Source: Candidatus Firestoneibacteriota bacterium (lineage in GTDB: Bacteria; Oederibacteriota; D2-FULL-39-29). From it: a stretch of 41,426 nucleotides of DNA. Below the pieces are notes generated by a model. It worked only from the letters and a program-made list of their open reading frames with translations, was not told the DNA's origin and ran no database searches. Positions 11,287 through 41,426 of this stretch are shown in pieces; positions within the stretch are counted from its first letter, which is position 1, and every line of letters starts with the position of its first letter. The stretch spans positions 1-41,426 of the forward strand of contig CAITEH010000026.1 in NCBI GenBank assembly GCA_903891415.1, in the 5' to 3' direction. A program made the position numbers and the translations under genes.

Positions 11287-11357
11287 GTATGGTTTTTTAA
11301 CCGGTTGGCAACCGGATATGCTCAGTAAACAGGTAATGGTTTTTATTGATTAATTTA
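11287..11357. other. AT-rich gap with no recognised feature
   Basis: Between the small possible gene and the inverted-repeat element I see only AT-rich sequence with GGTTGGCAACCGG as a small imperfect palindrome (about 11301-11313). Confidence 0.3.
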
Positions 11358-11502
11358 AGCTGTCATTGCGAGGAATGCGGCGTTAGCCGCGGCTTATGAC
11401 GAAGCAAACTCAAATTAGAACTTATGTTTCAGAACGGACAATTATTACTGGTTTGCTTCGTCGAGAGACCCACCTATCGGTGGACTCCTCGCAATGACAG
11501 CT
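11358..11502. repeat. 145-bp MITE-like element with 17-bp perfect terminal inverted repeats
   Basis: AGCTGTCATTGCGAGGA (11358-11374) and TCCTCGCAATGACAGCT (11486-11502) are perfect inverted ends. Inside, GACGAAGCAAAC and GTTTGCTTCGTC extend the symmetry around a central CTTATG/TTCAGAA region. The element is non-coding. TGTCATTGCGAGG-type elements are widespread in bacterial genomes; no transposase is seen here. Confidence 0.8.
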
Positions 11503-11539
11503 AAAAAGTGTTTAATATATTTAAGCTGTGAGCTATATT

Positions 11540-18147: not shown

Positions 18148-19392
18148 ATGAAGATCTTACACCTTTGTGATCATTACAGGCCGCTGGGCGGCGCCGAAAA
18201 ACTTCTTTTTGACACGCTCCGGGCGCTTGAAGCGGCCGGCATTCAAAACTCCGTGGCCATGCACGATTATCCGGAAAACAGGATCTCCGGGGCAAGAAAA
18301 GAATATATTGTACCGGGGCTTGACGCCCAGCCCGGGAGCGGCGGTATCTTAAGCTATCTTAAAATATGTTTTCGGGCAAAAAAATGCCTGGCGGAAATCA
18401 TCAGGGCCGAAAAACCCGATGTTATTCATGTACATAATATCCAGAACCCTTTCACTTTCCGGGAATGCGTAAAGCGGGCTCCCGTGGTAAGGTCCATACA
18501 CGATCCGAGATTATATTGTTTTACCGATTGGCGGCTTCTGCCGGGCAGCCGGAAGATCTGTCCCTATCCTCTGGGCGCAAAATGCATAGCGGAGGGCTGT
18601 ATAGGAAAAGACCTGCTTCTCTATACCCTTGCCGGTAAAAGGGCAATTTTTAAATTCCTGCATTATCTGGCGCACAGGAAAGCAAACAAGCTTATCCTGG
18701 AAAGCAAAGCCATGATCTCCTGTATCCTGCAAAACGGCTACCGGGAAGAACAGGCGGCCTGCCTTCCCAATTTTACCGTAACGCATGAACTTTTAGAGGT
18801 GGAAGAGCGGAATAAAAAATACGGCGTACCGGGGGAGAACAGCCTTGTTTTTGTCGGCCGGGCTTCCTATGAGAAAGGGCTCAGTTATCTGCTGGAAGCG
18901 GTCAGCTTGCTGAAAATCCCCTTCCGGCTTTATCTGGTCACAGGCGGGCCGGAAATGCACGCGGTCTCTCAAAAAATAAAAGAACTTAAACTTGAAGACA
19001 GGGTTACCGTTCCGGGCATACTTTCCTATGAGGAAACCAGAAAATATTATAATCTCGCGGATGTAGTTGTCGTACCTTCGGTCTGGCTTGAGTCTTTTTG
19101 CCTTGTGGGACTGGAAGCCATGGCGAACGCCAAGCCCGTGGTGGCTTATAGAACGGGAGGCATATCCGACTGGCTGGAGGACGGTAAGACCGGCTTGCTG
19201 GCCGGATGTGGAAATGTCCCGGAGCTGGCAGAGAAAATAGAGGCCCTGCTTCTGGATAAAACGCGGGCCGCGGAATACGGCAGGAACGGCTACAATAGAG
19301 TCAGAGAATTCTACAGCAGGGAAGTCTATCTTCCCCGGCTAATAGACATATATAAAGAAGCCGCGAAGAAAAGTGACAAAAGTTTACAATAA
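18148..19392 (+). CDS. GT4-family glycosyltransferase
   Basis: The 414-residue GT-B enzyme starts with HLCDHYRPLGGAEKLL, a typical GT4 nucleotide-free lobe entry. The donor-binding lobe begins at SLVFVGRASYEKGLSYLLEA (232-251) and carries the E-x7-E motif in ESFCLVGLE (Glu315, Glu323). A cysteine group at 138-151 (ICPYPLGAKCIAEGC) is a known feature of some GT4 subfamilies. It should add one sugar from a nucleotide donor to the growing glycan at the cytoplasmic face. The last 16 codons are copied twice more in the following non-coding region (from 19534 and 19726). Confidence 0.93.
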   Translation: MKILHLCDHYRPLGGAEKLLFDTLRALEAAGIQNSVAMHDYPENRISGARKEYIVPGLDAQPGSGGILSYLKICFRAKKCLAEIIRAEKPDVIHVHNIQNPFTFRECVKRAPVVRSIHDPRLYCFTDWRLLPGSRKICPYPLGAKCIAEGCIGKDLLLYTLAGKRAIFKFLHYLAHRKANKLILESKAMISCILQNGYREEQAACLPNFTVTHELLEVEERNKKYGVPGENSLVFVGRASYEKGLSYLLEAVSLLKIPFRLYLVTGGPEMHAVSQKIKELKLEDRVTVPGILSYEETRKYYNLADVVVVPSVWLESFCLVGLEAMANAKPVVAYRTGGISDWLEDGKTGLLAGCGNVPELAEKIEALLLDKTRAAEYGRNGYNRVREFYSREVYLPRLIDIYKEAAKKSDKSLQ

Positions 19393-20003
19393 GTATTTGT
19401 AATATACTTTTGTCATCCTGAGTCATTTTTTTGACGAAGGATCTTAGCTATTAGACGAAGGATCCCAGCACTTAAAAATAGTAAAAGCAGAGATGCTTCG
19501 CAAAGAGCAGCTCAGCATGACAAGTTGAGGTTGAATAGGCATATATAAAGAAGCCGCGAAGAAAAGTGACAAAAGTTTACAATAAGTATTTGTAATATAC
19601 TTTTGTCATCCTGAGTCGTTTTTAGACGAAGGATCCCAGCTATTTGACGAAGGATCTCAGCACTTAGAAATATTAAAAGCAGATATGTTTCGCAAAGAGC
19701 AGCTCAGCATGACAAGTTGAGGTTGAATAGGCATATATAAAGAAGCCGCGAAGAAAAGTGACAAAAGTAAACAGTAAGTATTTGTAATAACCTTTTGTCA
19801 TCCTGAGTCATTTTTTTGACGAAGGATCTCTGTGTTTTAAGTCTGAAGAACAAGGATGTTTCGCCAAGGATTTATCATAACCTTTTGTCATCCTGAGTCG
19901 TTTTTAGACGAAGGATCTTAGCTATTAGACGAAGGATCCCGGCACTTAGAAATATTAAAAGCAGATATGTTTCGCGAAGAGCAGCTCAGCACCACAAGTT
20001 GAA
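19341..20003. repeat. tandem 192-bp repeats: glycosyltransferase gene tail plus TGTCATCCTGAG hairpin element
   Basis: Copy 1 (19341-19533) holds the last 52 bases of the GT4 gene and a hairpin element with ends TTGTCATCCTGAG and CTCAGCATGACAA (19410-19523). Copy 2 (19534-19725) repeats all of it, including the coding tail and stop. Copy 3 (19726 to about 19876) repeats the tail but has a different, truncated hairpin interior. Copy 4 (about 19877-20003) has only the hairpin. The GT9 ribosome binding site follows directly. The elements are non-coding and fill the whole 623-base gap. Confidence 0.92.
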
Positions 20004-20015
20004 GAGGAAACATTA

Positions 20016-21689
20016 ATGAAAAATTTTGTTGCCACAAATAACTCCTCTTTAGGGGCGATCCAAAATTGCCTTGCCGACCTCAAGCACAGGTACGGCGGGA
20101 GCGAATTATTTGTCCTGGTGGAAGAAAATAAGGCGGAGGCTTACGGTAAAATACTTGAAGGCTGCAAAATAATCAGCTACCGGCAGGGCTCGCTTTTTTC
20201 CTCGGGAGGGATGTACCGGTTTTACCGGGAGCTGCGCGCGCATGAATTCGAGCAGTTTACCGTGATAAAAGAAAAAGAAAAAAAATATGACACCAAATAC
20301 GATATCCTGTTTTACCTTTCCGGGGCCAGGTGTAAACTGCTCTACAATGCCGTGGACAGGAATATCTATGAAAAGAGCGGGGCCGATAAGCTTCTTAAGA
20401 TAATAGTTTCCAGGCTCTGGATAGCGTTCTGGCTGATCTTTTTTTTGCACTATATCTTACCGGTCTATCTTCTGGCTCTTCCGGGGTATCTGTTTCGCGG
20501 AAAAATAGTGACAGCGCTCAGGTTTTTGCGGAAGAACGTGCTTGAACTTGCAGGTTACCTTGCGCAGGACCTTTCAGTGTTCAAAGAGCACATATTCCTG
20601 GACCTGCTGCTGCAGCTCGAATTTTTGAGGACAGCTTATGAAAGCCCGGTGCTTCCCGGCAGAGAAAACATTAAAAATATTCTGGTTCTGAAGCCGGAAC
20701 ATATCGGGGACATGGTCCTGTTCCTGCCTTTTTTAAGGGAGCTTAGAAAGAACTTCCCCGGGGCAAAGATAACTTTGCTGGCTTGTCCCTGGAACGTAAA
20801 AGTGGTTGAGAATTGCCCCTATGTGGATGAAATAATAATATATTACACGAACAATGCTGTGTTTAACCGCGGCAGGAAACGGGCGGACTACTGCTTGAAA
20901 AGAATATTCCTGCTGGTAAAGCTTGCGTTAAAAGGGTATGATTTATGTCTGGACCCGGGCGGCTGGGCTGAAACCTTTAAAATAGCCTGTATAACCGGAG
21001 CCGGGCGGAAAATAGCAGTAAACTACAACAGGTTTCCGCGTTTGTTCAATTATACGCTGGTGGAGCCCAAAGCGGAGCAAAATGATATTCTGCGTAATTT
21101 TTTACTGCTCGGGCCTCTCGGGCTCAAAGAAAATTTTGATACCGGGCTTGAGTTTGCCGTGCCCGCGCTCGAGCTCCAAAAAGCAAAAATATTTCTCGAA
21201 AAAAACGGTTTTAAAGGCGGCCGGCTGCTCGGTTTTTACGCGGGCAGCAGTTCTCCCGCGAGGATGTGGCCGAAAGAAAATTTTATTGAATTGGCAGACG
21301 CACTCGGGGAATATGAACTGATACTTTTTGACTCCCCCGGCGGTGGCGGGCCGGTAAAGGAAATAGCCGGTAAACTGAAAAAGAAGCCCATAGTTACCCC
21401 GGAGAGTTTAAGTCTTGAAGAATTTGCAGCGCTTGTAAGTTACTGTAAGGTTTTTGTAGCTGAAGGCGGCGGACTTTTCCATATAGCTACTGCGAGAGGG
21501 GTGTCCTCGATAGGGTTATTCGGCGCGGAAGATGTCTTAAGATGGGGTAATTATTCCGCGAATAATAAAGGTATCTCAAAAATGTTTCCCTGCAGTCCCT
21601 GCAGGAAAAACCACTGTATAAGGAATCTTTGCATGGAAGCCATAAAAGTAGAGGAAGTTTTACAGGCGGTAAAATGCGCATTGGAATAG
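20016..21689 (+). CDS. GT9 (heptosyltransferase-family) glycosyltransferase with extra N-terminal region
   Basis: The 557-residue protein has a GT9 core from about residue 221 (NILVLKPEHIGDMVLFLPFL). It continues through LLACPWNVKVVENCPYVDEI, the donor-site stretch LGFYAGSSSPARMWPKENF, FVAEGGGLFHIATARG and the cysteine cluster CSPCRKNHCIRNLC near the end, a common mark of WaaF-like enzymes. The first 220 residues are unusual for the family: an alpha-beta part (GGSELFVLVEENK) and a hydrophobic pair of segments at 133-160 that may anchor the protein to the membrane. It likely adds a heptose or other sugar to lipopolysaccharide. An AGAGGA ribosome binding site is directly after the last repeat copy. 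Confidence 0.9.
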   Translation: MKNFVATNNSSLGAIQNCLADLKHRYGGSELFVLVEENKAEAYGKILEGCKIISYRQGSLFSSGGMYRFYRELRAHEFEQFTVIKEKEKKYDTKYDILFYLSGARCKLLYNAVDRNIYEKSGADKLLKIIVSRLWIAFWLIFFLHYILPVYLLALPGYLFRGKIVTALRFLRKNVLELAGYLAQDLSVFKEHIFLDLLLQLEFLRTAYESPVLPGRENIKNILVLKPEHIGDMVLFLPFLRELRKNFPGAKITLLACPWNVKVVENCPYVDEIIIYYTNNAVFNRGRKRADYCLKRIFLLVKLALKGYDLCLDPGGWAETFKIACITGAGRKIAVNYNRFPRLFNYTLVEPKAEQNDILRNFLLLGPLGLKENFDTGLEFAVPALELQKAKIFLEKNGFKGGRLLGFYAGSSSPARMWPKENFIELADALGEYELILFDSPGGGGPVKEIAGKLKKKPIVTPESLSLEEFAALVSYCKVFVAEGGGLFHIATARGVSSIGLFGAEDVLRWGNYSANNKGISKMFPCSPCRKNHCIRNLCMEAIKVEEVLQAVKCALE

Positions 21690-25826: not shown

Positions 25827-26069
25827 ATGAAAGTTGCTGTAAGAAAGGAACTGCTAAATGAAATAAAAAATCTGCCATCTGATTTAACGAAAGATGTGCT
25901 GAAGTATGTTGTTTTTGTTAAATATAAGAAGGTCGTAGATACAGACCAGTCCTATTTCTGGTCTAAACGGTGGCAGGGTCTTGAAAAGGAAGCCGACAGG
26001 AATATTAAAGCAGGGAAAGTACACAGATACAATTCCCTGAAAGAATTAAGAGCAAAAATGGGCGACTGA
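25827..26069 (+). CDS. small antitoxin-like protein
   Basis: The 80-residue protein begins MKVAVRKELLNEIKNLP, continues with helical segments (LTKDVLKYVVFVKYKK) and a basic-acidic middle, and ends YNSLKELRAKMGD. That end is a common antitoxin C-terminus which inserts into the toxin. I cannot assign a named DNA-binding fold. Its stop overlaps the toxin start as TGATG, it has its own near-consensus promoter, and it is followed by a clear RelE-fold toxin. The antitoxin role rests mainly on that pairing. Confidence 0.75.
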   Translation: MKVAVRKELLNEIKNLPSDLTKDVLKYVVFVKYKKVVDTDQSYFWSKRWQGLEKEADRNIKAGKVHRYNSLKELRAKMGD

Positions 26070-26332
26070 TGTTGGAATTCAGGACTACCGAAAGATTTGA
26101 AAAAAGCCTAAAAATCCTACCCAAAGAAATCAGAAACAAATTCTATAAACAACTGAACCTGTTGCTTTCCAATCCCGGACATCCGTCACTTCACACTAAA
26201 AGAATTCAAGGTGTGAATGACATCTGGGAAGGCAGGGTAGATTACAAGTACCGTTTTACTTTTAACAAATATCAGGGAATCGTGATATTAAGGGTGATTG
26301 GTAATCACGATGAAGTCTTAAAGCGGCCGTGA
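26069..26332 (+). CDS. RelE/ParE-superfamily toxin
   Basis: The 87-residue protein has the compact RelE fold: FRTTERFEKSLKILPKEIRNKF (two helices), the HPSLHTKRIQG connector, then IWEGRVDYKYRFTF and IVILRVIGNHDEVLKRP, the last two beta strands and tail. The arginines and the terminal histidine of the GNHDEVL motif lie where mRNA-cutting members have catalytic residues. It would inhibit translation when free of its antitoxin. The overlap TGATG shows translational coupling. Gyrase-poisoning ParE activity is an alternative. Confidence 0.85.
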   Translation: MLEFRTTERFEKSLKILPKEIRNKFYKQLNLLLSNPGHPSLHTKRIQGVNDIWEGRVDYKYRFTFNKYQGIVILRVIGNHDEVLKRP

Positions 26333-26345
26333 TCGAAGGTATTAG

Positions 26346-26573
26346 TTAAGCAGCCGGGAAAAACAATGGAAGAAAGTACTTGAAGAAGAAGACAAGAAAG
26401 AATTCTCCGGAGAGATCCGAAAGATAACAAATTCAAGCAAAGCGCCAGACGGCCCGGACTTTATAGGAAAGATGGAATGCCAAATAAGGGTGGCTGTTGT
26501 CCCTCTTTTCCTTTTCTATGAAAACAGGGTCAGGTTCAGGGCCCCAAAAGCATACGGTAAAGGAAAATATTAA
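26346..26573 (+). pseudogene. C-terminal remnant of a REP-associated tyrosine transposase (RAYT)
   Basis: An open stretch without its own start encodes REKQWKKVLEEEDK, then EIRKITNSSKAPDGPDFIGKME. This pattern matches the end of TnpA/RAYT (Y1) transposases: W..L.E, then EIR..T..G.P.G..FI..LE. The catalytic HUH and tyrosine region is absent. After the last recognisable residue (about 26485) the reading frame runs through the 19-bp inverted repeat and a GGGTCAGG stretch and stops on TAATG, overlapping the AraC start. It is thus a decayed end of a mobile gene. Confidence 0.5.
26492..26510 (+). repeat. left copy of a 19-bp inverted repeat bounding a 3.8-kb cassette
   Basis: GGCTGTTGTCCCTCTTTTC occurs here and, as a perfect reverse complement, at 30281-30299. 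It lies just behind the transposase remnant. The two copies enclose the AraC, methyltransferase-like, sandwich and esterase genes. Confidence 0.75.
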
Positions 26574-27310
26574 TGGGTATAGCTTCTTTTTTCATAGTTA
26601 GGGCAAGCAAGGGATGCTCTTCAAAATGGCATTCTCATTCTTTTTGGGAAATTGTATACAATGAAAGCGCGGGCGGGTGCATAGAATTTGGAGATAAAAA
26701 GGAAAAGTACAAAAGGGGTTCGGTCATGGTATTACGTCCCAATGTTCCCCATCTGCAAATATGCGGCGGAGAGGGAGCCCACTGGTGCCTGGGACTTTCC
26801 GGCTATGAAACAGAGGGGTTCAAGGAAGTTATTTTTAAGGATAAAGGCCGGATACTTTCCCTTTTAAAAAATATGGCACGGGAACTTAAGGTAAAGAGGG
26901 TGTTTTACCGGGCTTTTATGGAGGCGGATGCCGCGAAGATCGCCCTTATATTAAAAAGACTGACTTCGGGAAAACAGGCTGTGCCCGAGGAAGATGAAAG
27001 AATCAGAAAGATAAAAAGAACCCTGGATGAAAAATTTGATAAAAATATTGATTTCGGGACGCTCATTGGAAACGTATTTCTAAGTAAAGAATATGTCAGA
27101 CAGGTTTTCAAGAAAGAATACGGGACTACTCCCCTAAAATATCTGATACAAAAAAGGATAGAAAAGGCAAAAATCCTGCTTCTCGAAAATAAGCTGACCA
27201 TAAAGGAAATAGCCGCTATATGCGGTTTTGAGAATGAGTATTATTTCAGCAGGCTCTTTAAGAAAGTAGTGTCCGTATCTCCAAAAGCATACCGTAACAC
27301 AAGCCAGTAA
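26573..27310 (+). CDS. AraC-family transcriptional regulator
   Basis: The 245-residue protein has a cupin-like sensing half: KWHSHSFWEIVYNESAGGCIEF with the metal- or ligand-binding His pair, then GSVMVLRPNVPHLQICGG. The C-terminal half has the double helix-turn-helix: FLSKEYVRQVFKKEYGTTP, YLIQKRIEKAKILLLE and the signature IKEIAAICGFENEYYFSRLF ending SPKAYRN. Regulators of this kind usually activate adjacent sugar-catabolic genes on binding a sugar. The next three genes on the same strand are natural targets. The start ATG overlaps the stop of the transposase remnant. GGTAAAGGAAAAT is a modest ribosome binding site. Confidence 0.92.
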   Translation: MGIASFFIVRASKGCSSKWHSHSFWEIVYNESAGGCIEFGDKKEKYKRGSVMVLRPNVPHLQICGGEGAHWCLGLSGYETEGFKEVIFKDKGRILSLLKNMARELKVKRVFYRAFMEADAAKIALILKRLTSGKQAVPEEDERIRKIKRTLDEKFDKNIDFGTLIGNVFLSKEYVRQVFKKEYGTTPLKYLIQKRIEKAKILLLENKLTIKEIAAICGFENEYYFSRLFKKVVSVSPKAYRNTSQ

Positions 27311-27418
27311 TTATCTTTCCAACGGCATTTTTAAGTCCATCATTTTCTACGTTTTGTGCATTTCAATTTACCGGTTCATAGACTATCATAAAAACTCAAT
27401 GCATGAAAAGGATAAAAA

Positions 27419-28474
27419 ATGGCAAAGCAATTGACTCCACGGGAAAGACTGAAATTGACTCTTGCTCACAAACAACCTGATAGGCCGCCTGTACGGATAG
27501 ACTATACTAAGGAAGTCCAAACAGTCCTTTCCGCCTATTTTAAGGAAAAGTTCGGGGATGAGGATATTGCCCGTATATTAAATATTGACTTTAGATATGT
27601 TAGTCCACAAAGAATTAAAGTGCAAAAGCAGAAAGAGGAAACTGCGCTTTTACACGGGATGTATCAGGATGTAACATTAAAACCGCTTGCCTGGATAAAA
27701 ACTATGGATGATGTTTGCAAGTTTCAGCCGGCAATCAATCCGGATGAATTTAATTATCAAAATATTGGAAATATGTGTGCTGCAAATGATCCCTTTATCC
27801 GTACCCTTGGAGATCCCGGGCAGTTTGATATTGTAAACGGGCTTGGAGCAAGGGGTATCGGTCTGGAAGATATGATCTGCGCGATCATGACCGAAGATCC
27901 CGTCGTTGTTGCTTTGATCGACAAGCATCTGGCAAATAACTACGAATTTTTAAGAAGATGCCTTGAAGCAGGAGGAGGAATGATAGAAATCGTGCACATC
28001 GGGGAAGACTGCGGCAATCAGCGAAGCCCTCTTTTCCCTCCTGAGTTTTTCAAACGCTTCTTCGCGCCGAGAATGAAAAGATTTGCCGACCTTGCCCATA
28101 ATTTTGGCGCGGCCTGTATGCTGCATTCCTGCGGGTCGGTAAGAGACATCCTTAATATTTTAATAAAAGATGTAGGCATAGATATTCATGACGCTTGCCA
28201 GCCGGAGCCCTCGGGAATGGCGCCGGCCGGCTTAAAACGGGATTTTGGCGGCAGGATAACTTTTTGCGGGATGCTTTCACTCCAAAAAACCCTCCCGTAT
28301 GGAACACCTGAAGACTGCCGGAAGGAAGCGGAGTTTCTGATAAAAGAAGCGGGCAAAAAAGGAGGTTATATTTTCTCTCCGCCAAATACGATTACTAATG
28401 ATGTTCCGCTGGAAAATATCCTTGCCATTTATGAAGCTGTAACCGGGAAGGATTTGCGTCAACCGGTCAGATGA
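27419..28474 (+). CDS. uroporphyrinogen decarboxylase-family protein, corrinoid methyltransferase-like
   Basis: The 351-residue TIM-barrel protein begins LTPRERLKLTLAHKQPDRPPV, the hallmark of the UroD/MtaA family. It carries HSCGS at 236-240 (His236, Cys238) and Cys283 in TFCGMLSL. An H-x-C plus later cysteine is the zinc site of methylcobamide-dependent methyltransferases and is absent from true UroD, which also needs an RxxxR start motif not seen here. So a methyl transfer or demethylation role is more likely than heme synthesis. No corrinoid protein is adjacent. Many polysaccharide-degrading bacteria keep such genes near sugar hydrolases, with unknown substrates. It lies 108 bases after the AraC gene. 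Confidence 0.85.
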   Translation: MAKQLTPRERLKLTLAHKQPDRPPVRIDYTKEVQTVLSAYFKEKFGDEDIARILNIDFRYVSPQRIKVQKQKEETALLHGMYQDVTLKPLAWIKTMDDVCKFQPAINPDEFNYQNIGNMCAANDPFIRTLGDPGQFDIVNGLGARGIGLEDMICAIMTEDPVVVALIDKHLANNYEFLRRCLEAGGGMIEIVHIGEDCGNQRSPLFPPEFFKRFFAPRMKRFADLAHNFGAACMLHSCGSVRDILNILIKDVGIDIHDACQPEPSGMAPAGLKRDFGGRITFCGMLSLQKTLPYGTPEDCRKEAEFLIKEAGKKGGYIFSPPNTITNDVPLENILAIYEAVTGKDLRQPVR

Positions 28475-28581
28475 CTAAACCTCTATTGGGGTCTAAATAT
28501 TTGTAGAAACAGGTTGGTGGCTTTATATAAATGACGAATTTCAGATAAAAGGTGATAAAAATAATTTAGTGAGGAGGAAAA

Positions 28582-29256
28582 ATGCTTAGGAGAATGGTAT
28601 TGACAATAATGATAGTAAGTTTGGCGGTATCAATGTATGCGGCAAAAGTAACAGAAGGGTTTGAAGATAAGACAATTTTGAAAAATTGGGAGATCGAAGG
28701 TGATGTCGCTATTTCCGGGGGTCAGAAGCATAGCGGAAAATCTGCTCTTTTTGTGCCTGCCGGCGCGAAAGCAATTTTAAGATTTGGCGCGGAAAACAAA
28801 TACGGTACTGTAACTATATGGGTCTATGATTCTTACGTAAATAATAAAAAAAATAAGCCGGGAAAAGAATGGAATGGCCCGTACTTCGGTTTGATTAATA
28901 GTGATGATGACAAAGCCGTTGAAATACTGGCATGGAAAACTTGGCTTTCCGTCCTCAACTACAATCAAGTGTTTACCGCGGAAAACCAGTGGTTTAGTAT
29001 AGGCTGGTCCGGTTTAAAAAGACCTGAGGCAGCAGCATGGAGTAAGTTTACCTTTACTTTTCCGAATGATAAAACATTAGGGCTTACATTCAACGATGAA
29101 AAAGAAGTTAATGGGTGGCCGGAAAAAATTGAATTTTTTAACAAAGGTGCTAACGGCATAGTCTTTGGAGGAGGACAAGATATCAAGGATAAGAATGAAA
29201 CCTTCTATTATGACGATATAGAAATAGATGTGAAGGATGCGGCCAAAGCCAAATAA
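28582..29256 (+). CDS. secreted beta-sandwich protein, possibly carbohydrate-binding
   Basis: The 224-residue protein has a clear signal peptide (MLRRMVLTIMIVSLAVSMYA) after a strong GAGGAGG ribosome binding site. The mature part starts EGFEDKTILKNWEIEGD, with HSGKSALFVPAGA and YGTVTIWVYDS after it, and ends ETFYYDDIEID. This style is typical of jelly-roll or concanavalin-like sandwich domains that bind sugars or accompany sugar hydrolases. I see no catalytic motif. It sits between the methyltransferase-like gene and the esterase, so it may be part of an extracellular degradation set. The assignment is by pattern only. Confidence 0.75.
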   Translation: MLRRMVLTIMIVSLAVSMYAAKVTEGFEDKTILKNWEIEGDVAISGGQKHSGKSALFVPAGAKAILRFGAENKYGTVTIWVYDSYVNNKKNKPGKEWNGPYFGLINSDDDKAVEILAWKTWLSVLNYNQVFTAENQWFSIGWSGLKRPEAAAWSKFTFTFPNDKTLGLTFNDEKEVNGWPEKIEFFNKGANGIVFGGGQDIKDKNETFYYDDIEIDVKDAAKAK

Positions 29257-29291
29257 ATATACTTGACTAAAATAAAAAAATGGGAGTTTAG

Positions 29292-30146
29292 GTGAAAATA
29301 AAAACAATTTTGCTGGGTATGTTATTGTGTCTCCCCGGTTTAGCGGGAGAGGTTGAAGTAATTAATGATGTTGTATATGGAAAAGGCGGGGATGAGATTC
29401 TGAAACTTGATATAGTCAGGCCTAAAGAAAAAATGAGTAAACCTATGCCTGTGATAGTATTTATGCACGGCGGCGGCTGGGGAAAAGACTGGGGTGATAA
29501 AAAGCACGGGATTGGATACCTTACCAAATTCGCCAAAAGAGGCTATTTTGGAGCTACAATAAATTACAGGCTGATACCTAAGGATAAGTTTCCGGCTCAA
29601 ATAGAAGACTGTAAATGTGCTGTCAGATTTTTAAGGGCCCATGCCAAGGAGTATAATATTGATCCGGACCATATTGCCTCATGGGGCGGTTCTGCCGGAG
29701 GACATCTAGCGTCTATGCTTGGTACCGCCGGTAACGTAAAAGAGTTCGAAGGAACCGGAGGCTGGGAAGGGTATTCAAGTAAAGTGCAAGCAGTTATAGA
29801 TTGCTGCGGACCCGTGGATCTGTTTAAATGGAGAAATCAAAATGAACCGGGCGGTATGCTGATAGGCCTCGTCGGGGGCGCTTCTATAAAATTTAAAGAC
29901 GCAATGATTAAAGCCAGCCCGATCACCTATGTAAGCAAAGATGCCCCGCCGTTTTTAATAGTTCACGGGGATAAAGACGATCAGGTTTCTATAAAACAGA
30001 GCCAGGCTTTTTCTGAGGCTTTGAAGGCTGCCGGAGTAGATGTAAATTTTATTACGATAAAGGATGCTACGCATAGTAAAGGCTGGGAAAACTTTAATGA
30101 AGATAAAATAGTGGGAGATTTTTTAGAGAAGTATCTTAAAAAGTAA
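29292..30146 (+). CDS. secreted alpha/beta-hydrolase, carboxylesterase/acetyl xylan esterase-like
   Basis: The GTG start (29292) follows GGAG at five bases and begins a signal peptide MKIKTILLGMLLCLPGLA. The 284-residue protein is an alpha/beta hydrolase of the BD-FAE/COG0657 type. The oxyanion loop is HGGGW (59-63), the nucleophile Ser134 is in GGSAGG, the acid is in HGDKDDQV (Asp227 or Asp230) and His261 is in DATHSKGW. Such enzymes remove acetyl or feruloyl groups from plant polysaccharides. It belongs to the inverted-repeat-bounded cassette and would act outside the cytoplasm. Confidence 0.92.
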   Translation: MKIKTILLGMLLCLPGLAGEVEVINDVVYGKGGDEILKLDIVRPKEKMSKPMPVIVFMHGGGWGKDWGDKKHGIGYLTKFAKRGYFGATINYRLIPKDKFPAQIEDCKCAVRFLRAHAKEYNIDPDHIASWGGSAGGHLASMLGTAGNVKEFEGTGGWEGYSSKVQAVIDCCGPVDLFKWRNQNEPGGMLIGLVGGASIKFKDAMIKASPITYVSKDAPPFLIVHGDKDDQVSIKQSQAFSEALKAAGVDVNFITIKDATHSKGWENFNEDKIVGDFLEKYLKK

Positions 30147-30156
30147 GGAGAAATCT

Positions 30157-30312
30157 ATGAGAGTAGCAATGAAAGAAGAAGGCCAAAAAGCAGGTTCCAT
30201 AAATTTGCTTCATCTCTGGTCCTCTATCTTAACCCTGCCCATATTCCTGGGTTCCTCCTTGCTATTTCAAGAAAAGAGAAGAAAAGAGGGACAACAGCCC
30301 CCTTTAGTTTGA
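30157..30312 (+). CDS. small reading frame with strong ribosome binding site, possibly a truncated gene
   Basis: AAGGAG six bases before an ATG opens a 51-codon frame: MRVAMKEEGQKAGSI, then a hydrophobic LLHLWSSILTLPIFLGSSLLF, ending QEKRRKEGQQPPLV. Its last third is the right copy of the 19-bp inverted repeat and its purine-rich flank. The good ribosome binding site right after the esterase suggests that a further operon gene once began here and was cut by the repeat. No family is recognised. Confidence 0.35.
   Translation: MRVAMKEEGQKAGSINLLHLWSSILTLPIFLGSSLLFQEKRRKEGQQPPLV
30281..30299 (-). repeat. right copy of the 19-bp inverted repeat
   Basis: GAAAAGAGGGACAACAGCC is the perfect reverse complement of the copy at 26492-26510. 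Confidence 0.75.
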
Positions 30313-30595
30313 CAAAATAGCGGAAAAATTGATGCAAAGAGATATGGCAAAAATATCGAGAATGTATTAGAAGGTATCCGCATCATGTAACACTGAGAGG
30401 GAATTACCGGCATAAGATATTTGACGGCCAAAGGATACGGAAAATTACAAATATAGAATAGTCTTAATTTTATGCTTTTTTTATTATCATTTATCTGCGT
30501 TTGTGTTTTTATCTGTGGCCTCCAAAGTTTTCTTTGGAGAGATCTCGCTGTAAGCGGACCATCAACCCATCCGTACTTAACGGGACATTTTGGGC
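30313..30595. other. non-coding gap with a hairpin repeat
   Basis: No gene is supported. A short open stretch around 30335-30455 (translated CKEIWQKYREC onward) matches no family I know and may be a remnant. The right half holds the CTCCAAAG hairpin repeat at 30505-30549 and a GGGACATT stretch at 30581-30588 shared with the region before exbD. Confidence 0.4.
30505..30549 (+). repeat. CTCCAAAG hairpin repeat
   Basis: CTCCAAAG (30520-30527) and CTTTGGAG (30532-30539) form a perfect 8-bp stem with a TTTT loop, flanked by ATCTGTGG and AGATCTCGC. An inverted copy is at 36011-36040 and a diverged one at 4744-4782. Confidence 0.65.
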
Positions 30596-30625
30596 TTGAC
30601 AACATACACTACTGTATGCTATACT
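30596..30625 (+). promoter_or_regulatory. lexA promoter
   Basis: TTGACA (30596-30601), an 18-base spacer and TATACT (30620-30625) lie 41 bases before the lexA ATG. AAAGGAGA is the ribosome binding site. A perfect palindrome fills the spacer. Confidence 0.7.
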
Positions 30626-30652
30626 ACATACATAAGCATACACTAATGTGTT
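30603..30652. promoter_or_regulatory. candidate LexA operators (two related palindromes)
   Basis: Site 1 (30603-30618) is the perfect palindrome CATACA-CTAC-TGTATG, between the -35 and -10 boxes. Site 2 (30637-30652) is CATACA-CTAA-TGTGTT, with the same left arm and a partly conserved right arm, between the -10 box and the ribosome binding site. Autorepression by LexA through such paired sites is normal. The motif differs from the E. coli (CTGT-N8-ACAG) and Bacillus boxes. Confidence 0.6.
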
Positions 30653-30666
30653 AAAGGAGAATACAG

Positions 30667-31290
30667 ATGGCAGAACACGAGCTGGGAGCAAGAGAAGTAG
30701 AAGCACTCAGGCAGATAAGGAATTACTATATTACCAACGGAGAATTTCCTTCTGTTCGAAAACTTAGCGCGCTTATAAAGTACAAGTCGCCCAGGTCAAC
30801 TTTCTTATTGATCCAAAAGATAGTTGAAAAGGGCTTAATACTGCGTGATCCGGATGGTAACTACGAGCTGAAGGATGACCCGAATGATCTGCAGAGTGAA
30901 ACTACCGTTGATATCCCGCTTATCGGTTCTGTCGCCTGCGGGGCGCCGATCCTTGCGGAGCAAAACTTTGAAGCTATGGTGCCGGTCTCTAGGAAACTGG
31001 TAGCGCCGGGCAATAAGTACTTTTTTGTCAGAGCCCGCGGGGACAGTATGAATCTTGCGGGAATAAATGACGGGGATTTCGTGCTTATCAGGCAGACCAA
31101 TACGGCCAGGAACGGTGACGCCGTTGTTGCCCTTATAAATGATGAAGCCACGATAAAACAGATCCAGTATGAAGATAATTATGTTATATTAAAACCCAAC
31201 TCTTCAAGCAAGAAACATATGCCTATTATACTTTCCGGAGAATTCCAGATCCAGGGTGTAGTTGTTTCCGCTATTCCCAAGATCTTTTAA
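30667..31290 (+). CDS. lexA: SOS repressor LexA
   Basis: The 207-residue protein has an N-terminal winged helix (about 1-68, recognition part PSVRKLSALIKYKSPRST) and a C-terminal S24 self-cleavage domain. The catalytic serine is Ser127 in RGDSM and the lysine is Lys164 in EATIKQI. The scissile site lies in GSVACGAPI; here it reads Cys91-Gly92, where most LexA proteins have Ala-Gly. RecA filaments should trigger its autocleavage and derepress the SOS genes. recA follows 83 bases downstream with its own promoter. Two palindromes in the lexA promoter are the likely operators. Confidence 0.95.
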   Translation: MAEHELGAREVEALRQIRNYYITNGEFPSVRKLSALIKYKSPRSTFLLIQKIVEKGLILRDPDGNYELKDDPNDLQSETTVDIPLIGSVACGAPILAEQNFEAMVPVSRKLVAPGNKYFFVRARGDSMNLAGINDGDFVLIRQTNTARNGDAVVALINDEATIKQIQYEDNYVILKPNSSSKKHMPIILSGEFQIQGVVVSAIPKIF

Positions 31291-33533: not shown

Positions 33534-33646
33534 TTGTCATCCTGCCTGTCCGCCTGTGGAGGAAGCGCTTTTAGCGAAGGATCTCTGTATTTTAAGTCTG
33601 AAAAGCAGGGATGTTTCGCCAAGAGAAAAATGGCTCAACATGACAA
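33534..33646. repeat. single copy of the TGTCATCCTGAG hairpin element
   Basis: Ends TTGTCATCCTG and CTCAACATGACAA and the inner GAAGGATCTCTGTATTTTAAG and GGATGTTTCGCC match the third copy of the array at 19341-20003. It is non-coding and interrupts the run of LiaF-like genes. Confidence 0.75.
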
Positions 33647-37069: not shown

Positions 37070-40006
37070 ATGGCTGAATTAGAGTCTAAGAAAAAGGCGT
37101 TAAAGGCCCCGGTGCGGTCGGGCTGGATCTGGCTTGACGGCTGCCGCAAAGAAATCGACTGCCATCTTTTGTTCCGGAAGGAATTTGTCTGCCGTAATTC
37201 TCCAAAAGAGCCCCTGCTGCGCATTGCCGCAAGCGATCAATACCGGCTTTTTATTAACGGGCGGCTGATCGGAGACGGCCCGGCCCGAAGCGAAAAACCA
37301 ACAGCCTACGTTGATACCTACCGGGCCTCCGAACTGCGTTTAAGAACCGGGGTTAATTGTATCGCGGTACTGGCTCATAATACAATGATGCCGCAGCACG
37401 GCCAAGCTCTTGTGCCGGGCGGCCTCAAAGTAGAGCTTGAATACCGGAATTCAAACGGGCGCAGGTTCCGGGTCCAAAGTGACGGGTCCTGGCGCGTTCT
37501 CAAGGCGTCTCAATTTCAGAAGCCCGCACCCCGGAGGTTCTTTGCCGTGGGCTTTAATGAAAAAATAGAATTTTCTGTTCAAAAGAACGGTTGGGAGCTG
37601 GCAGGATATGATGCCCGGGGCTGGCAAAAGGCCGTTTGCGTTGATGACCGGCCCTACCGTAATACTATAGACCGTCCCATTCCGCTCTTCAAATTTGAAA
37701 ATTGGAAACCTGCAAAGATACGCGGTTCGGGCAGGCTGGGTCCGCTTGACGGGATCTGGGGGCTGCCCTTTGATAAATGCAGGCTGAACAGTATAAAAAA
37801 AGAAGGCCTGTTTGCCACTTATATCTACTCTGCCAGAAAAACACGTGCCAATTTGAGTTTTGGCTGCGATAATTGGGCGCGGGTCCTGTTGAATGGGCAG
37901 CAAATATTTGAAAAAGGACGTCCTGACGCGAAATTTCGTAATCATCTGGAATACAATATTATGGGCTACAAGGGCATGCTTCACGGTAACGGGCATCGCT
38001 GGGAATCCTGGTCCGCTACTCCGCAGGGCGGGTTTTACTTAAAGCGGGGTTGGAACAGGCTTGTGGTATGGCTTTTTGAACCCGCGGAAGCTTACGGCTT
38101 TGAAGGGGCTTTTTTTCCTGTTGGACAGGAGATGCTGGGCTTATCAGAGCGCTTGCCGGTAATATGTTCGGCAGTAAAGGAGAGCACCCGCCCGGATACC
38201 TGGGTTTTCCTCCCGCGGGAAGATGCGCCTATCGAGCAGGGTGCCCCGGTTGAAATTTCAGTCCCGGATGCCAGGCCCCGGCTGGAGGCCTCCCATCTTT
38301 TTGATTGGGATATCCAGAAAAGGTCCGCAAAAATACCCGCCGGAGCCCGGTCACTGCTGGATAAGCCCAAAAGCAAAGGGCCTATGATATTGCTACCCGG
38401 AGAATTCATTGAATTTCAACTTCCTAAAGAAGGTGTCGGTTTTATTGAGGTGGAACTTCGCGGGCCCGGGGGAGCTCTGGTGGATGTTACTATTACCGAA
38501 GCTCAAACAAAGCTGAAAAACGGCAGGATGAGGTCCCTCTACAACGGGTTGTGGCAGACAGACCGCCTGGTACTCAGCGGGGGAAAAGACCGCTGGCTTT
38601 CTTTGGACCGCCGGGCGGGCCGGTTTTTGGCTATAACAATACGTCAAGCCGGCGGGCCGGTTGAAGTTTTTAAACTGGCAATGCTGACCCAGCATTATCC
38701 CGCGGGCCGTTTGGGGCAATTTAAATGTTCCGACCGGGTTTTCACGCGCATGTGGGAAGCCGGCGCGGCTACGGTTGCTGCGGCCACTTTTGACGTGGCT
38801 GAAGATTGTCCGACCCGCGAGAAAGCACAGTGGAACGGAGATACATATCTTCGCATGTTCCAGATGGCCTATCTTTACGGCGATCTGCGCTTGTCCGCCA
38901 AAGGTGCCCGTGAATTTGCTTTCGATCAGAAACCTGACCGGTGGTCGCGTCCTATGGTCCCTTCCGGTTACGGGGATAAGCTTGTAGAGTATTGCTTCAT
39001 AATCGCGCCCTGGTATTGGCATCATTACCGTTTTACCGGCGATATTGAATTGCTCAGGGAAACTTTCCGGGGCGTGCGCAATCTTTTGAGCTACACGGCT
39101 TCATTGGCCGATAGCCGCGGTTTTGCCCTGCCGGGCGCGGATATAAGGAACTTGTTGTATATTGATTACACCATGATCCCTGTAAGGAAACGTTTGGGTG
39201 ATACGATAGGTGTTATGCAAGGCCTGTATGTTATGGCCCTGGATGCAGCGGCAAAACTGGCGGAGCTGCTTAATGAACGCGATCTGGCCGTTGAGTGGCG
39301 TTACCGGGCGGTTAAAGTACGCGAGCAGGCCGGAAAGTTGTTCTGGTCAGAAAAAAAAGGACTTTTTGCGGATAGTTTTCAAGACGGCAGGGCCGGTAAG
39401 ACGTTTTCCGGGCCTACCAATTACTGGATGCTGCTGGCCGGTATTCCGGCTCCCGGACAGGAGCAAAGGATATTGAAATGGTTGTGGCCCGCGCCGGAAA
39501 AAGAAAACATGGCGGCCTGGGCGCGCGGGGAAAGCCCGTATACAAAATATTTTGCGTCGGAAGCCCTGCTGGCGCGCGGTATGTGGAAAGAGGCCTTTAC
39601 CCTGTGGCGCGGGTTTTACGGTTCGCTCTTTAAACACCCTGAAACAGACACTGTCCCTGAATGGTGGGACCGCGGTTATTCCCTGAAAGCACCATTGTCC
39701 AGAAGCAGCCTGGTACATCCCTTCGGGATCGGCCCCATGGCGCATTTGGCCTCGCATGTTGCCGGGATCCGTCCGCTGGAGCCGGGTTACAAGATCCTGC
39801 TTTGGGAGCCCATGCCGGGGGACCTTAAATGGTTCAAAGCGGAATTGCCGTTAGCCGGTACCGGGCATTGGGTAAAAGTAACCATGGAACCGCGAAAGGG
39901 AGGCGGGCGGCAATTGCTCCTGCGCACTCCCCGGAACCTGAAAGTCCGGGCCAGTTCCGCCTATCTTTTAAAGGGAGACCGCCTTATCGTTAAAGAGCAG
40001 AAGTGA
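37070..40006 (+). CDS. GH78-like alpha-L-rhamnosidase family protein
   Basis: The 978-residue protein has a beta-rich N-terminal half (sandwich modules, e.g. YRLFINGRLIGDGPAR and GVNCIAVLAHNTM). An alpha/alpha-barrel follows from about residue 560 and a short C-terminal beta domain (about 895-978). The catalytic stretch DCPTREKAQWNGD starts at Asp579. By spacing, Asp579, Glu584 and Asp591 match the conserved Asp, the general acid Glu and the second Asp of bacterial GH78 enzymes. A late PEWWD may carry the base. It should release terminal rhamnose from glycans or glycosides. No signal peptide is present, so it probably acts on imported oligosaccharides. It is a single-gene unit divergent from the glutaredoxin operon. 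Confidence 0.87.
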   Translation: MAELESKKKALKAPVRSGWIWLDGCRKEIDCHLLFRKEFVCRNSPKEPLLRIAASDQYRLFINGRLIGDGPARSEKPTAYVDTYRASELRLRTGVNCIAVLAHNTMMPQHGQALVPGGLKVELEYRNSNGRRFRVQSDGSWRVLKASQFQKPAPRRFFAVGFNEKIEFSVQKNGWELAGYDARGWQKAVCVDDRPYRNTIDRPIPLFKFENWKPAKIRGSGRLGPLDGIWGLPFDKCRLNSIKKEGLFATYIYSARKTRANLSFGCDNWARVLLNGQQIFEKGRPDAKFRNHLEYNIMGYKGMLHGNGHRWESWSATPQGGFYLKRGWNRLVVWLFEPAEAYGFEGAFFPVGQEMLGLSERLPVICSAVKESTRPDTWVFLPREDAPIEQGAPVEISVPDARPRLEASHLFDWDIQKRSAKIPAGARSLLDKPKSKGPMILLPGEFIEFQLPKEGVGFIEVELRGPGGALVDVTITEAQTKLKNGRMRSLYNGLWQTDRLVLSGGKDRWLSLDRRAGRFLAITIRQAGGPVEVFKLAMLTQHYPAGRLGQFKCSDRVFTRMWEAGAATVAAATFDVAEDCPTREKAQWNGDTYLRMFQMAYLYGDLRLSAKGAREFAFDQKPDRWSRPMVPSGYGDKLVEYCFIIAPWYWHHYRFTGDIELLRETFRGVRNLLSYTASLADSRGFALPGADIRNLLYIDYTMIPVRKRLGDTIGVMQGLYVMALDAAAKLAELLNERDLAVEWRYRAVKVREQAGKLFWSEKKGLFADSFQDGRAGKTFSGPTNYWMLLAGIPAPGQEQRILKWLWPAPEKENMAAWARGESPYTKYFASEALLARGMWKEAFTLWRGFYGSLFKHPETDTVPEWWDRGYSLKAPLSRSSLVHPFGIGPMAHLASHVAGIRPLEPGYKILLWEPMPGDLKWFKAELPLAGTGHWVKVTMEPRKGGGRQLLLRTPRNLKVRASSAYLLKGDRLIVKEQK

Positions 40007-40051
40007 AATTTAAGAGGTAAGGAAATTCCTCATGACAGTTATTTTGGTGAT

Positions 40052-40131
40052 CTTGTAGTTGCCCAATTTCCGCCTGAGGCGGACCTGTCTAAGGTATGAC
40101 ACCGGGCGCCTTAAGAATACTCAACTACAAG
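40052..40131. repeat. second TGTAGTT-ended inverted-repeat element
   Basis: CTTGTAGTTG (40052-40061) and CAACTACAAG (40122-40131) are perfect 10-bp ends. Inside are TCCGCC/GGCGGA (40069-40083) and a weaker TAAGG/CCTTA stem. The ends and the upstream GGAAATTCCT match the element at 5606-5658, while the inner stems differ in sequence. Confidence 0.7.
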
Positions 40132-40272
40132 AAAAACTATACACTTCCCTTAGCCGTATATCCCGGTTGAAAAAGAGCTGACGAAAAATCAATAGCTGCA
40201 ATAACTTTTTTGCATCATCAAAGTAATAAGTTTTCCTTCGCATGGATCCCCGGGGAACCTGGGTACTAAACC

Positions 40273-40322
40273 GGACATTTCTGCTTTGGCAGAAAGCGGA
40301 CATTCTTACTTTGGCTTGACAA
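40273..40322 (+). repeat. paired GGACATT...CTTTGGC words leading into TTGACA
   Basis: GGACATTTCTGCTTTGGC and GGACATTCTTACTTTGGC are direct repeats; the first contains a TTTCTGC/GCAGAAA hairpin. The second runs into TTGACA. A related GGGACATTTTGGGC-TTGACA forms the upstream part of the lexA promoter (30582-30601). They may be remnants of insertion-sequence ends. Confidence 0.5.
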
Positions 40323-40366
40323 TGCGCAAAGATGTTCTTTATGCGACTCTGAAAATCTGATATAAT
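40316..40366 (+). promoter_or_regulatory. promoter-like boxes before the exbD genes
   Basis: TTGACA (about 40316-40321) has only a weak -10 at 17 bases (TTATGC). A perfect TATAAT (40361-40366) has only a weak -35. One of the two likely starts the exbD transcript. Confidence 0.4.
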
Positions 40367-40473
40367 AAAGAAGCGCCGTTTTGAGCAGTTTCACGCAAAA
40401 AAGACCGTTTAGCAGGAAATTAAAGGAACGGTCCCGAAATATTGCGGCGGCAAGGCAGGGAGAATTAAGACAA

Positions 40474-40887
40474 ATGGCAATGAAAACCGATGATAATGAT
40501 TCACCCATAGCGGATATTAATGTAACTCCCCTCGTGGATGTCTGCCTGGTACTGGTAATAATATTTATGGTTACAGCTAATTTTACAATGCAAGGCGGGA
40601 TCAAATTAACCCAGTCTGCCCAGGGTGCCGCGTCCGGAAAACATTCCATAGAAGAAAATGTAAATGTTATTCTGACAAAAGATAATAAAATATTGGTGAA
40701 CGGGCGGGAAATTGGCAGGGCTGACCTTGAGCTTGAACTGCGCAGTTGTATTGCAAAAAGCAAAGATAAACTCGTGACTATTGTCGCGGACAAGACCAAC
40801 CGGGTGGAAAGTGTCGTGGATGTCATGGATCTGGCAAAACAATCCGGCGCGGAAAAACTTTCTGTTCTGAAAAAACTTCAGGAGTAA
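40474..40887 (+). CDS. exbD: ExbD/TolR-family protein 1
   Basis: I place the start at ATG 40474; upstream in-frame sequence from 40381 (FTQKRPFSRKLKERSRN) is basic and lacks a ribosome binding site, and the one before 40474 is weak (GGGAG at 11 bases). The 137-residue protein has the short cytoplasmic INVTPLVDVCLVLVIIFMVTA membrane entry in which the aspartate is the proton-carrying residue. A periplasmic domain follows (IEENVNVILTKDNKILVNG, LVTIVADKTNRVESVVDVMDLAKQSG). With ExbB it would use the proton gradient to drive TonB or Tol. ExbB is not in the window, and a promoter lies directly upstream. Confidence 0.88.
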   Translation: MAMKTDDNDSPIADINVTPLVDVCLVLVIIFMVTANFTMQGGIKLTQSAQGAASGKHSIEENVNVILTKDNKILVNGREIGRADLELELRSCIAKSKDKLVTIVADKTNRVESVVDVMDLAKQSGAEKLSVLKKLQE

Positions 40888-40891
40888 TTAT

Positions 40892-41296
40892 ATGGGAATG
40901 CAAAACAACGGAGAAGAAGAGGATATATACGGTATTAACGTGACACCTCTCGTAGATGTGTGCCTGGTGCTGGTTATTATCTTTATGGTTACCGCCCCGA
41001 TGATGGTGCATCCAAATATGGAACTGGCTCTGCCCAAGGCCTCAACAAAAGAAGGAGAGGTTAAAGAAAATATCACTATCTCCATAAGCAGTAAAGGAGA
41101 ATGGGCGATAAACCAGGATATAGTAGGGAAAGAAGGCGTTGCCGCGCAGCTGCTGGTAATGATAAAAAAGAATAAGGATAAATATATAGTAATAAGAGCG
41201 GACAAAGACGCTCCCTGGGGTGCTGCCGAAGAGGCAATGTTCATGGCAAAGAAGGTCGGAGCCAAATACGCGTTAGCCACGGAGCAAAAAAGGTAA
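40892..41296 (+). CDS. exbD: ExbD/TolR-family protein 2
   Basis: The 134-residue protein is a second ExbD/TolR. The membrane entry INVTPLVDVCLVLVIIFMVTAP again carries the key aspartate. The periplasmic part (ITISISSKGEWAINQDIVG, YIVIRADKDAPWGAAEEAMFMAKKVGA) is diverged from the first copy. AGGAG seven bases upstream supports the ATG. The pair may form a mixed stator or serve two energisers. A TonB-like gene starts right after its stop. Confidence 0.93.
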   Translation: MGMQNNGEEEDIYGINVTPLVDVCLVLVIIFMVTAPMMVHPNMELALPKASTKEGEVKENITISISSKGEWAINQDIVGKEGVAAQLLVMIKKNKDKYIVIRADKDAPWGAAEEAMFMAKKVGAKYALATEQKR

Positions 41297-41426
41297 ATGA
41301 TCCTGGAAAAAAGGATAAAATATTCTTTTCTGGTAAGCTTAGGGCTGCATCTGCTGGTGATCTGGTTTTTTGCCTATATTTCCGTTAAGGAGAAGCGGGA
41401 AATAAAATTTATTACGAATATTGATA
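41297..41426 (+). CDS. TonB-like protein, N-terminal part (cut by the window end)
   Basis: The first 43 codons begin MILEKRIKYSFLVSLGLHLLVIWFF, a single membrane anchor with the SLGLHL pattern in which TonB and TolA carry their key histidine. They end KREIKFITNID at the window edge. The position directly after two exbD genes supports a TonB family role: carrying energy from the inner membrane to outer-membrane receptors. The proline-rich spacer and C-terminal domain are outside the window. Confidence 0.72.
   Translation, partial: MILEKRIKYSFLVSLGLHLLVIWFFAYISVKEKREIKFITNID

Follow-up and report, generated by a model that had tools for sequence, protein, structure and literature searches.

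The window analysed here, a stretch of 41,426 nucleotides from a Candidatus Firestoneibacteriota bacterium, is the entire contig C26 of its genome (GCA_903891415.1, G000 in the following; 2.5 Mb, 86 contigs, 86.7% complete) and carries a perfect 19-bp inverted repeat around four genes upstream of lexA. A preliminary description had read this segment as a catabolic cassette bounded, moved or captured by elements of the repetitive extragenic palindrome (REP) type. We found that the repeat is a pair of terminal inverted repeats (TIRs) of a TIRYT/TIRtron, an IS200-like Y1 tyrosine transposase with flanking TIRs, and that the four genes lie outside the ends of this element. With good confidence, the locus consists of the right end (RE) and the left end (LE) of a decayed TIRtron beside a four-gene segment that is not cargo of the TIRs.

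A scan of the window located GGCTGTTGTCCCTCTTTTC at 26492-26510 and its exact complement at 30281-30299, in agreement with the preliminary description. The 19-mer has two matches in the window at up to 3 mismatches, with 0.02 expected by chance and no shuffle containing two, and the repeat arms lengthen to 29 nt at 90% identity (26482-26510 and 30281-30309). The exact 19-mer is confined to this pair, and its 17-mer core is present in four copies in G000 with no exact match in any of 20 relatives. Thus, the repeat is not a very common intergenic sequence, the possibility that had been raised against the original proposal. No known RNA or tRNA site was found at the locus, and a literature search with the repeat sequence gave nothing relevant. 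Each window repeat is the GGGACAG-core end seen in intact elements plus the same 3-bp TTG insertion, and the left and right repeats are mutual best matches among all the ends compared, as are the LE/RE pairs of the elements on contig C75 of G000 and in genomes G005 and G007. Among the genomes compared, G001 is the only one of the same genus; G005, G007 and G008 are other members of the phylum, and G002 and G003 were compared as well.

Pieces of a transposase gene accompany both repeats. On the left, positions 26355-26495 (+) encode a C-terminal remnant (about residues 166-212 of 230) of a TIRYT Y1 transposase of the REP-associated tyrosine transposase (RAYT) kind, detected by tblastn with the intact transposase of contig C46 in the same genome (64% identity over 45 residues, E 9e-13; range 62-64%) and again in a whole-genome protein search (E 1.8e-11). 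A RAYT-like remnant had indeed been placed here. The truncated small frame reported on the right is also present, and is actually the frameshifted N-terminus (about residues 1-35, MAKISR..YPHHVTLRGNYRHKIF) of the same kind of transposase at 30344-30446 (+). It matches the C46 transposase at 43% over 30 residues (tblastn, E 2e-5), and in the whole-genome search (E 7e-4) the protein match covers residues 6-32 at 30357-30437 (+).

Both TIRs are transposon ends with a polarity, and the side of each that faces the interior of its element points away from the four genes. The RE-type TIR (26482-26510, +) has its tip toward the cassette and its internal side toward the transposase C-terminus, at the place next to the gene that it also takes in the intact elements of C46 and C75. 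The LE-type TIR (30281-30309, -) likewise faces the cassette with its tip, and lies about 45 bp upstream of the start codon of the remnant, as in C46. The window therefore reads transposase C-terminus, RE, four genes, LE, transposase N-terminus, with both transposase pieces on the + strand, whereas the order in all the intact elements examined is LE-transposase-RE. Because of this reversed order, the cassette is outside the element ends and is not bounded by the TIRs as cargo, contrary to what the preliminary description proposed. A complete LE-gene-RE element is absent from the window, which has only the two gene fragments in permuted order. This layout fits two copies in the same orientation separated by the genes, or else a single element and its adjoining genes, opened within the transposase gene; since the surviving pieces (about residues 1-35 and 166-212) share no overlap, they do not discriminate between one copy and two. 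The idea that the cassette had inserted into a transposase gene was ruled out, as the order is C-terminus, cassette, N-terminus and not the opposite.

The intact relatives define the layout to which the window is compared. G000 has three PF01797 genes. The intact C46 transposase has 230 residues; AAGAGGGACAGCCACCC precedes its start by about 45 bp and GGTGGCTGTCCCTCTTTTC directly follows its stop, giving an element of the form AAGAGGGACAGCCACC..tnp..GGTGGCTGTCCCTCTTTTC. The C75 element has a perfect inverted TIR pair of 26 bp (AAATTAGGGACAGCGACCAATTATTT). Elements in G005, G007 and G008 show the same layout with GGGACAG-core ends, and LE-type ends were seen in G002 and G001. The intact C46, C75 and G002 copies match PF01797 and NF047646, with the C75 copy under the NF047646 cut-off, and the HUH (NHVHF) and Y---NP (YVERNP) motifs are visible in the intact translations. 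A Y1 transposase on contig C71 of G002 (L172:13158-13853) is 86% identical to the C46 copy. Because LexA is just 44% identical between these two genomes, this suggests a recent transfer of the element.

TIRYTs are RAYT-like genes flanked by non-REP TIRs with the motif GGGGWSAS, and their TIRs also exist as singles, dimers and clusters (Di Nocera et al. 2013, PMC3733652). In most published cases they belong to subclass 2.1 of TnpA_Y1, and the C-terminal extension of the helix-turn-helix (HTH) type that marks this subclass is typical of most, not all, described TIRYTs (PMC6006769). The REPs of REPtrons, on the other hand, have a GT(A/G)G head and a GC-rich palindrome, and usually occur in many copies per genome (Nunvar et al. 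2010, PMC2817692). The element in the window fits TIRYT/TIRtron better than RAYT/REPtron, because its TIRs are mostly non-palindromic, have a GGGACAG core and are low in copy number. Like a TIRYT, it has a Y1_Tnp transposase with HUH and Y---NP motifs, close non-palindromic TIRs, the GGGACAG core, and both single and dimeric TIRs in the genome. Unlike a TIRYT, what remains in the window is only a pair of gene fragments that do not overlap and stand in permuted order on either side of four other genes; the motif in G000 is AGGGACAG, not GGGGACAG; and no HTH domain was matched by Pfam at E<=1 in four intact copies. Its resemblance to RAYT/REPtrons lies in a homologous transposase, which scores 81.9 bits for NCBIfam NF047646 (cut-off 80), with inverted repeats on both sides. 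The repeats, however, are not GC-rich palindromes with a GT(A/G)G head, most ends fold into hairpins no better than shuffled sequences, and the core motif is found at only 11 sites in 2.5 Mb. The suggested link to REP-type elements thus stands insofar as the ends come from a RAYT-type element with remnants on both flanks, but they are the TIRs of a TIRYT and not palindromic REPs. None of the papers retrieved mentions TIRYTs from this phylum.

The motif GGCTGTN{0,3}CCCTCTT gave these 11 sites in G000, with none in reversed controls and none in G001. They comprise the window pair, three sites on C46, two on C11 and a dimer each on C5 and C80, and solo and dimeric TIRs adjoin unrelated genes at C5, C80 and C46. 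On C11 (14922-15644; L179:6923-7650), a DUF4919 gene, the predicted GTG start of which falls within a TIR, is bracketed RE-gene-LE in the same inside-out sense as in the window. On C46 (L178:520-2897), an AbiEi/AbiEii module lies between the LE of the intact TIRYT and a further LE in direct orientation. Similar ends thus do occur around other genes, a point that the preliminary description had proposed to check, but no second copy of the cassette, and no other site that combines this gene set with such ends, was found in G000 or the relatives searched.

The four enclosed genes, all on the + strand, are present as first described. The gene at 26573-27310 encodes an AraC-family regulator (PF12833, E 6e-21) with a cupin-like N-terminus (weak Cupin_2 match). 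The second gene, at 27419-28474, encodes a protein with the uroporphyrinogen decarboxylase (URO-D) fold (PF01208, E 1e-16) that resembles MtaA/CmuA and falls far under the family cut-offs (59 bits for TIGR01463, cut-off 235). Its match to PDB 4ay7 has an E of 1.6e-5, and the resemblance to MtaA is limited to the C-terminal half. Like the methylcobamide methyltransferases MtaA/CmuA, it has the URO-D fold and the HxC half of the zinc site (HSC). Unlike them, it has SPPNT in the alignment where the third ligand, the PGC-type Cys, is expected, and no corrinoid protein gene is nearby; the only corrinoid-type protein in G000 is one small frame of 208 residues elsewhere in the genome. With one of the three zinc ligands of MtaA absent, a methyl transfer or corrinoid methyltransferase role appears doubtful; cobalamin-dependent chemistry is possible, and unsupported at the locus. 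URO-D-fold proteins are expanded in the genus (25 matches in G000 and 28 in G001, with one small corrinoid protein per genome), and their zinc-site residues vary, with P-x-H/N where PGC is expected. A search of the genome_contigs set gave no relative of the URO-D protein in the window, and its full-length matches in the relatives reach at most about 37%.

The third gene (28582-29256) encodes a secreted concanavalin-like beta-sandwich protein, assigned from homologue counts, AlphaFold2 (AF2) and Foldseek. It belongs to a genus-restricted multicopy family with 12 copies in G000, 17 in G001 and none in 57 other genomes. The AF2 model has a pLDDT of 88.7, and its nearest structural neighbours in Foldseek are carbohydrate-binding folds (Cip1, Emp47 CRD, CBM22 and TtX122, TM about 0.5). 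The family (e.g. L076:6936-7607, L087:7166-9225 and L078:5851-6516) is without a Pfam or NCBIfam model, has one distant match in Candidatus Zipacnadia, forms a tandem triplet on contig C111 of G001, and is frequently found beside glycoside-hydrolase-like genes. The fourth gene (29292-30146) encodes a secreted carbohydrate esterase of the BD-FAE family (PF20434, 217.6 bits against a gathering threshold of 26.8). Like the bifunctional feruloyl/acetyl xylan esterases of this family, it matches over the full domain and has the catalytic Ser/Asp/His motifs (HGGGW, GGSAGG, D and H; alignment with 6nkf). Its PDB matches are 6nkf, the GH43-CE protein 6mly and the acetyl xylan esterase 6xyc, and a paralog of 68% identity is on contig C33. 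A glycan esterase is a reasonable reading of this protein as judged from its sequence. Inferred from families and folds, the most economical view is that the four genes form a locus for extracellular glycan binding and de-esterification. The processing of a methylated or acetylated plant glycan proposed earlier is therefore plausible on the esterase side and doubtful on the corrinoid methyltransferase side.

The GC content at third codon positions (GC3) of the four genes is 38-43%, at percentiles 8, 11, 1 and 3 of 157 sampled open reading frames. This is a weak hint of acquisition, and the only one. On the other side, the multicopy secreted family, the esterase paralog and the URO-D protein with its matches of at most about 37% do not require import from outside. 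Upstream of lexA, G001 has neither the four genes nor the remnants; the interval between the glycosyltransferase (GT) genes and lexA holds a different, rearranged block. Because this entire interval is rearranged in G001, with the TonB/ExbBD/TPR block relocated, no clean empty site was found there, and G002 and G003 are without this neighbourhood; the comparison with relatives thus failed to reveal an unoccupied site. The TPR-ExbB-ExbD block is downstream of recA in the window (37070-41426), but in G001 it separates the GT genes from lexA (L048:4488-12483), a displacement that is a chromosomal rearrangement near the remnants. Comparison of C11 and C46 with 0.84 Mb of G001 for empty sites gave only partial, reordered synteny. 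A search for a source of the 30147-30290 spacer elsewhere returned the window itself as the sole match.

Several features adjoin the locus. A two-gene cassette at 25827-26332 (+), possibly a toxin-antitoxin pair (DUF2281/VapB-like and Gp49/ParE-like, sub-threshold Pfam/NCBIfam matches), abuts the left remnant and has no PADLOC match. Directly after the RE tip, weak evidence points to a possible relic of a further AraC gene at 26543-26571 (+), corresponding to its C-terminus (CCAAAAGCATACGGTAA..., PKAYGKGKY*); a stretch of 17 bp agrees at 16 positions with the 3' end of the AraC gene next to it, a score reached by 2 of 1000 shuffles. The RE tip may sit within an older AraC gene. The lexA gene and its promoter are at 30595-31290 (+), and nucleotide homology with G001 resumes at 30595. 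Elsewhere in the window, 19341-20092 has, after 19392, tandem repeats of 192 bp of the GTCATCCTGAGTC type, to which a 55-bp copy at 33569-33623 is related, and 11354-11506 forms a large imperfect hairpin with GTCATTGCGAGGA arms, likely a dispersed intergenic repeat.

Some observations weigh against a decayed TIRtron beside unrelated genes. The TIRs in G000 match GGGGWSAS at 7 of 8 positions (AGGGACAG; 8 of 8 in G001 and G005, GGGGACAG), and the window pair has in addition the 3-bp insertion (GAGGGACAACAG). The shared low GC3 of the four genes would fit joint acquisition, and the second RE-gene-LE locus at C11 raises the possibility that the arrangement is not pure coincidence. A composite mobile unit, in which two direct TIRtron copies flanked the four genes and moved them here before the outer halves were lost, has several points in its favour: RE-cassette-LE is exactly what lies within LE-tnp-RE-cassette-LE-tnp-RE, each TIR has the other as its best match, the GC3 of the four genes is low, the cassette is missing upstream of lexA in G001 and close relatives of the URO-D gene are lacking in the phylum. 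However, neither a second copy nor a clean empty site was found, the whole GT-lexA interval has been rearranged with respect to G001, the outer ends are gone and the target sites unreadable; moreover, the close paralogs of the secreted gene and the esterase in the same genome or genus mean that no outside source is needed. We consider such a unit unlikely.

Two independent insertions of TIRs or TIRtrons into adjacent intergenic regions, with no relation between them or to the enclosed genes, are a real though lesser possibility, in keeping with the solo and dimeric TIRs beside unrelated genes at C5, C80 and C46. The complementary transposase halves, together with the mutual best match and the common insertion, argue instead that the window TIRs come from one element or subfamily. 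Mobilisation in trans, in which a RAYT would move the cassette as cargo bounded by TIRs, similar to a miniature inverted-repeat transposable element (MITE), draws on the perfect 19-bp repeat and the cognate intact transposases in the genome, but the ends face the opposite way to those of every intact element examined, most ends show no hairpin beyond that of shuffles and no other TIR-bounded copies of these genes were found; this idea is highly improbable.

Most likely, TIRtron copies in the same orientation inserted beside a small accessory catabolic locus upstream of lexA and then decayed from their outer sides, which would leave the C-terminus and RE on the left and LE and the N-terminus on the right. 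A single element, with the segment opened inside its transposase gene, would have the same appearance. Under the decayed-TIRtron reading, the TIRs are today most likely inert relics, and the four-gene segment probably works on its own as a regulated locus, binding a plant-type glycan in the extracellular space and removing its ester groups.

Taken together, the locus appears ordinary: what is left of an element of a known type, next to an accessory glycan locus that is plausible but unproven. The impression of a catabolic transposon becomes that of a decay product of TIRYTs, a described and little-studied class. It seems very unlikely that TIRYT ends in G000 take up or mobilise ordinary genes, whether inside-out or in the manner of a composite, as the window, C11 and the AbiEi/AbiEii module on C46 could suggest. 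If it were true, such movement of passengers by TIRYT ends would give a domesticated-looking group of transposases a role in gene transfer.

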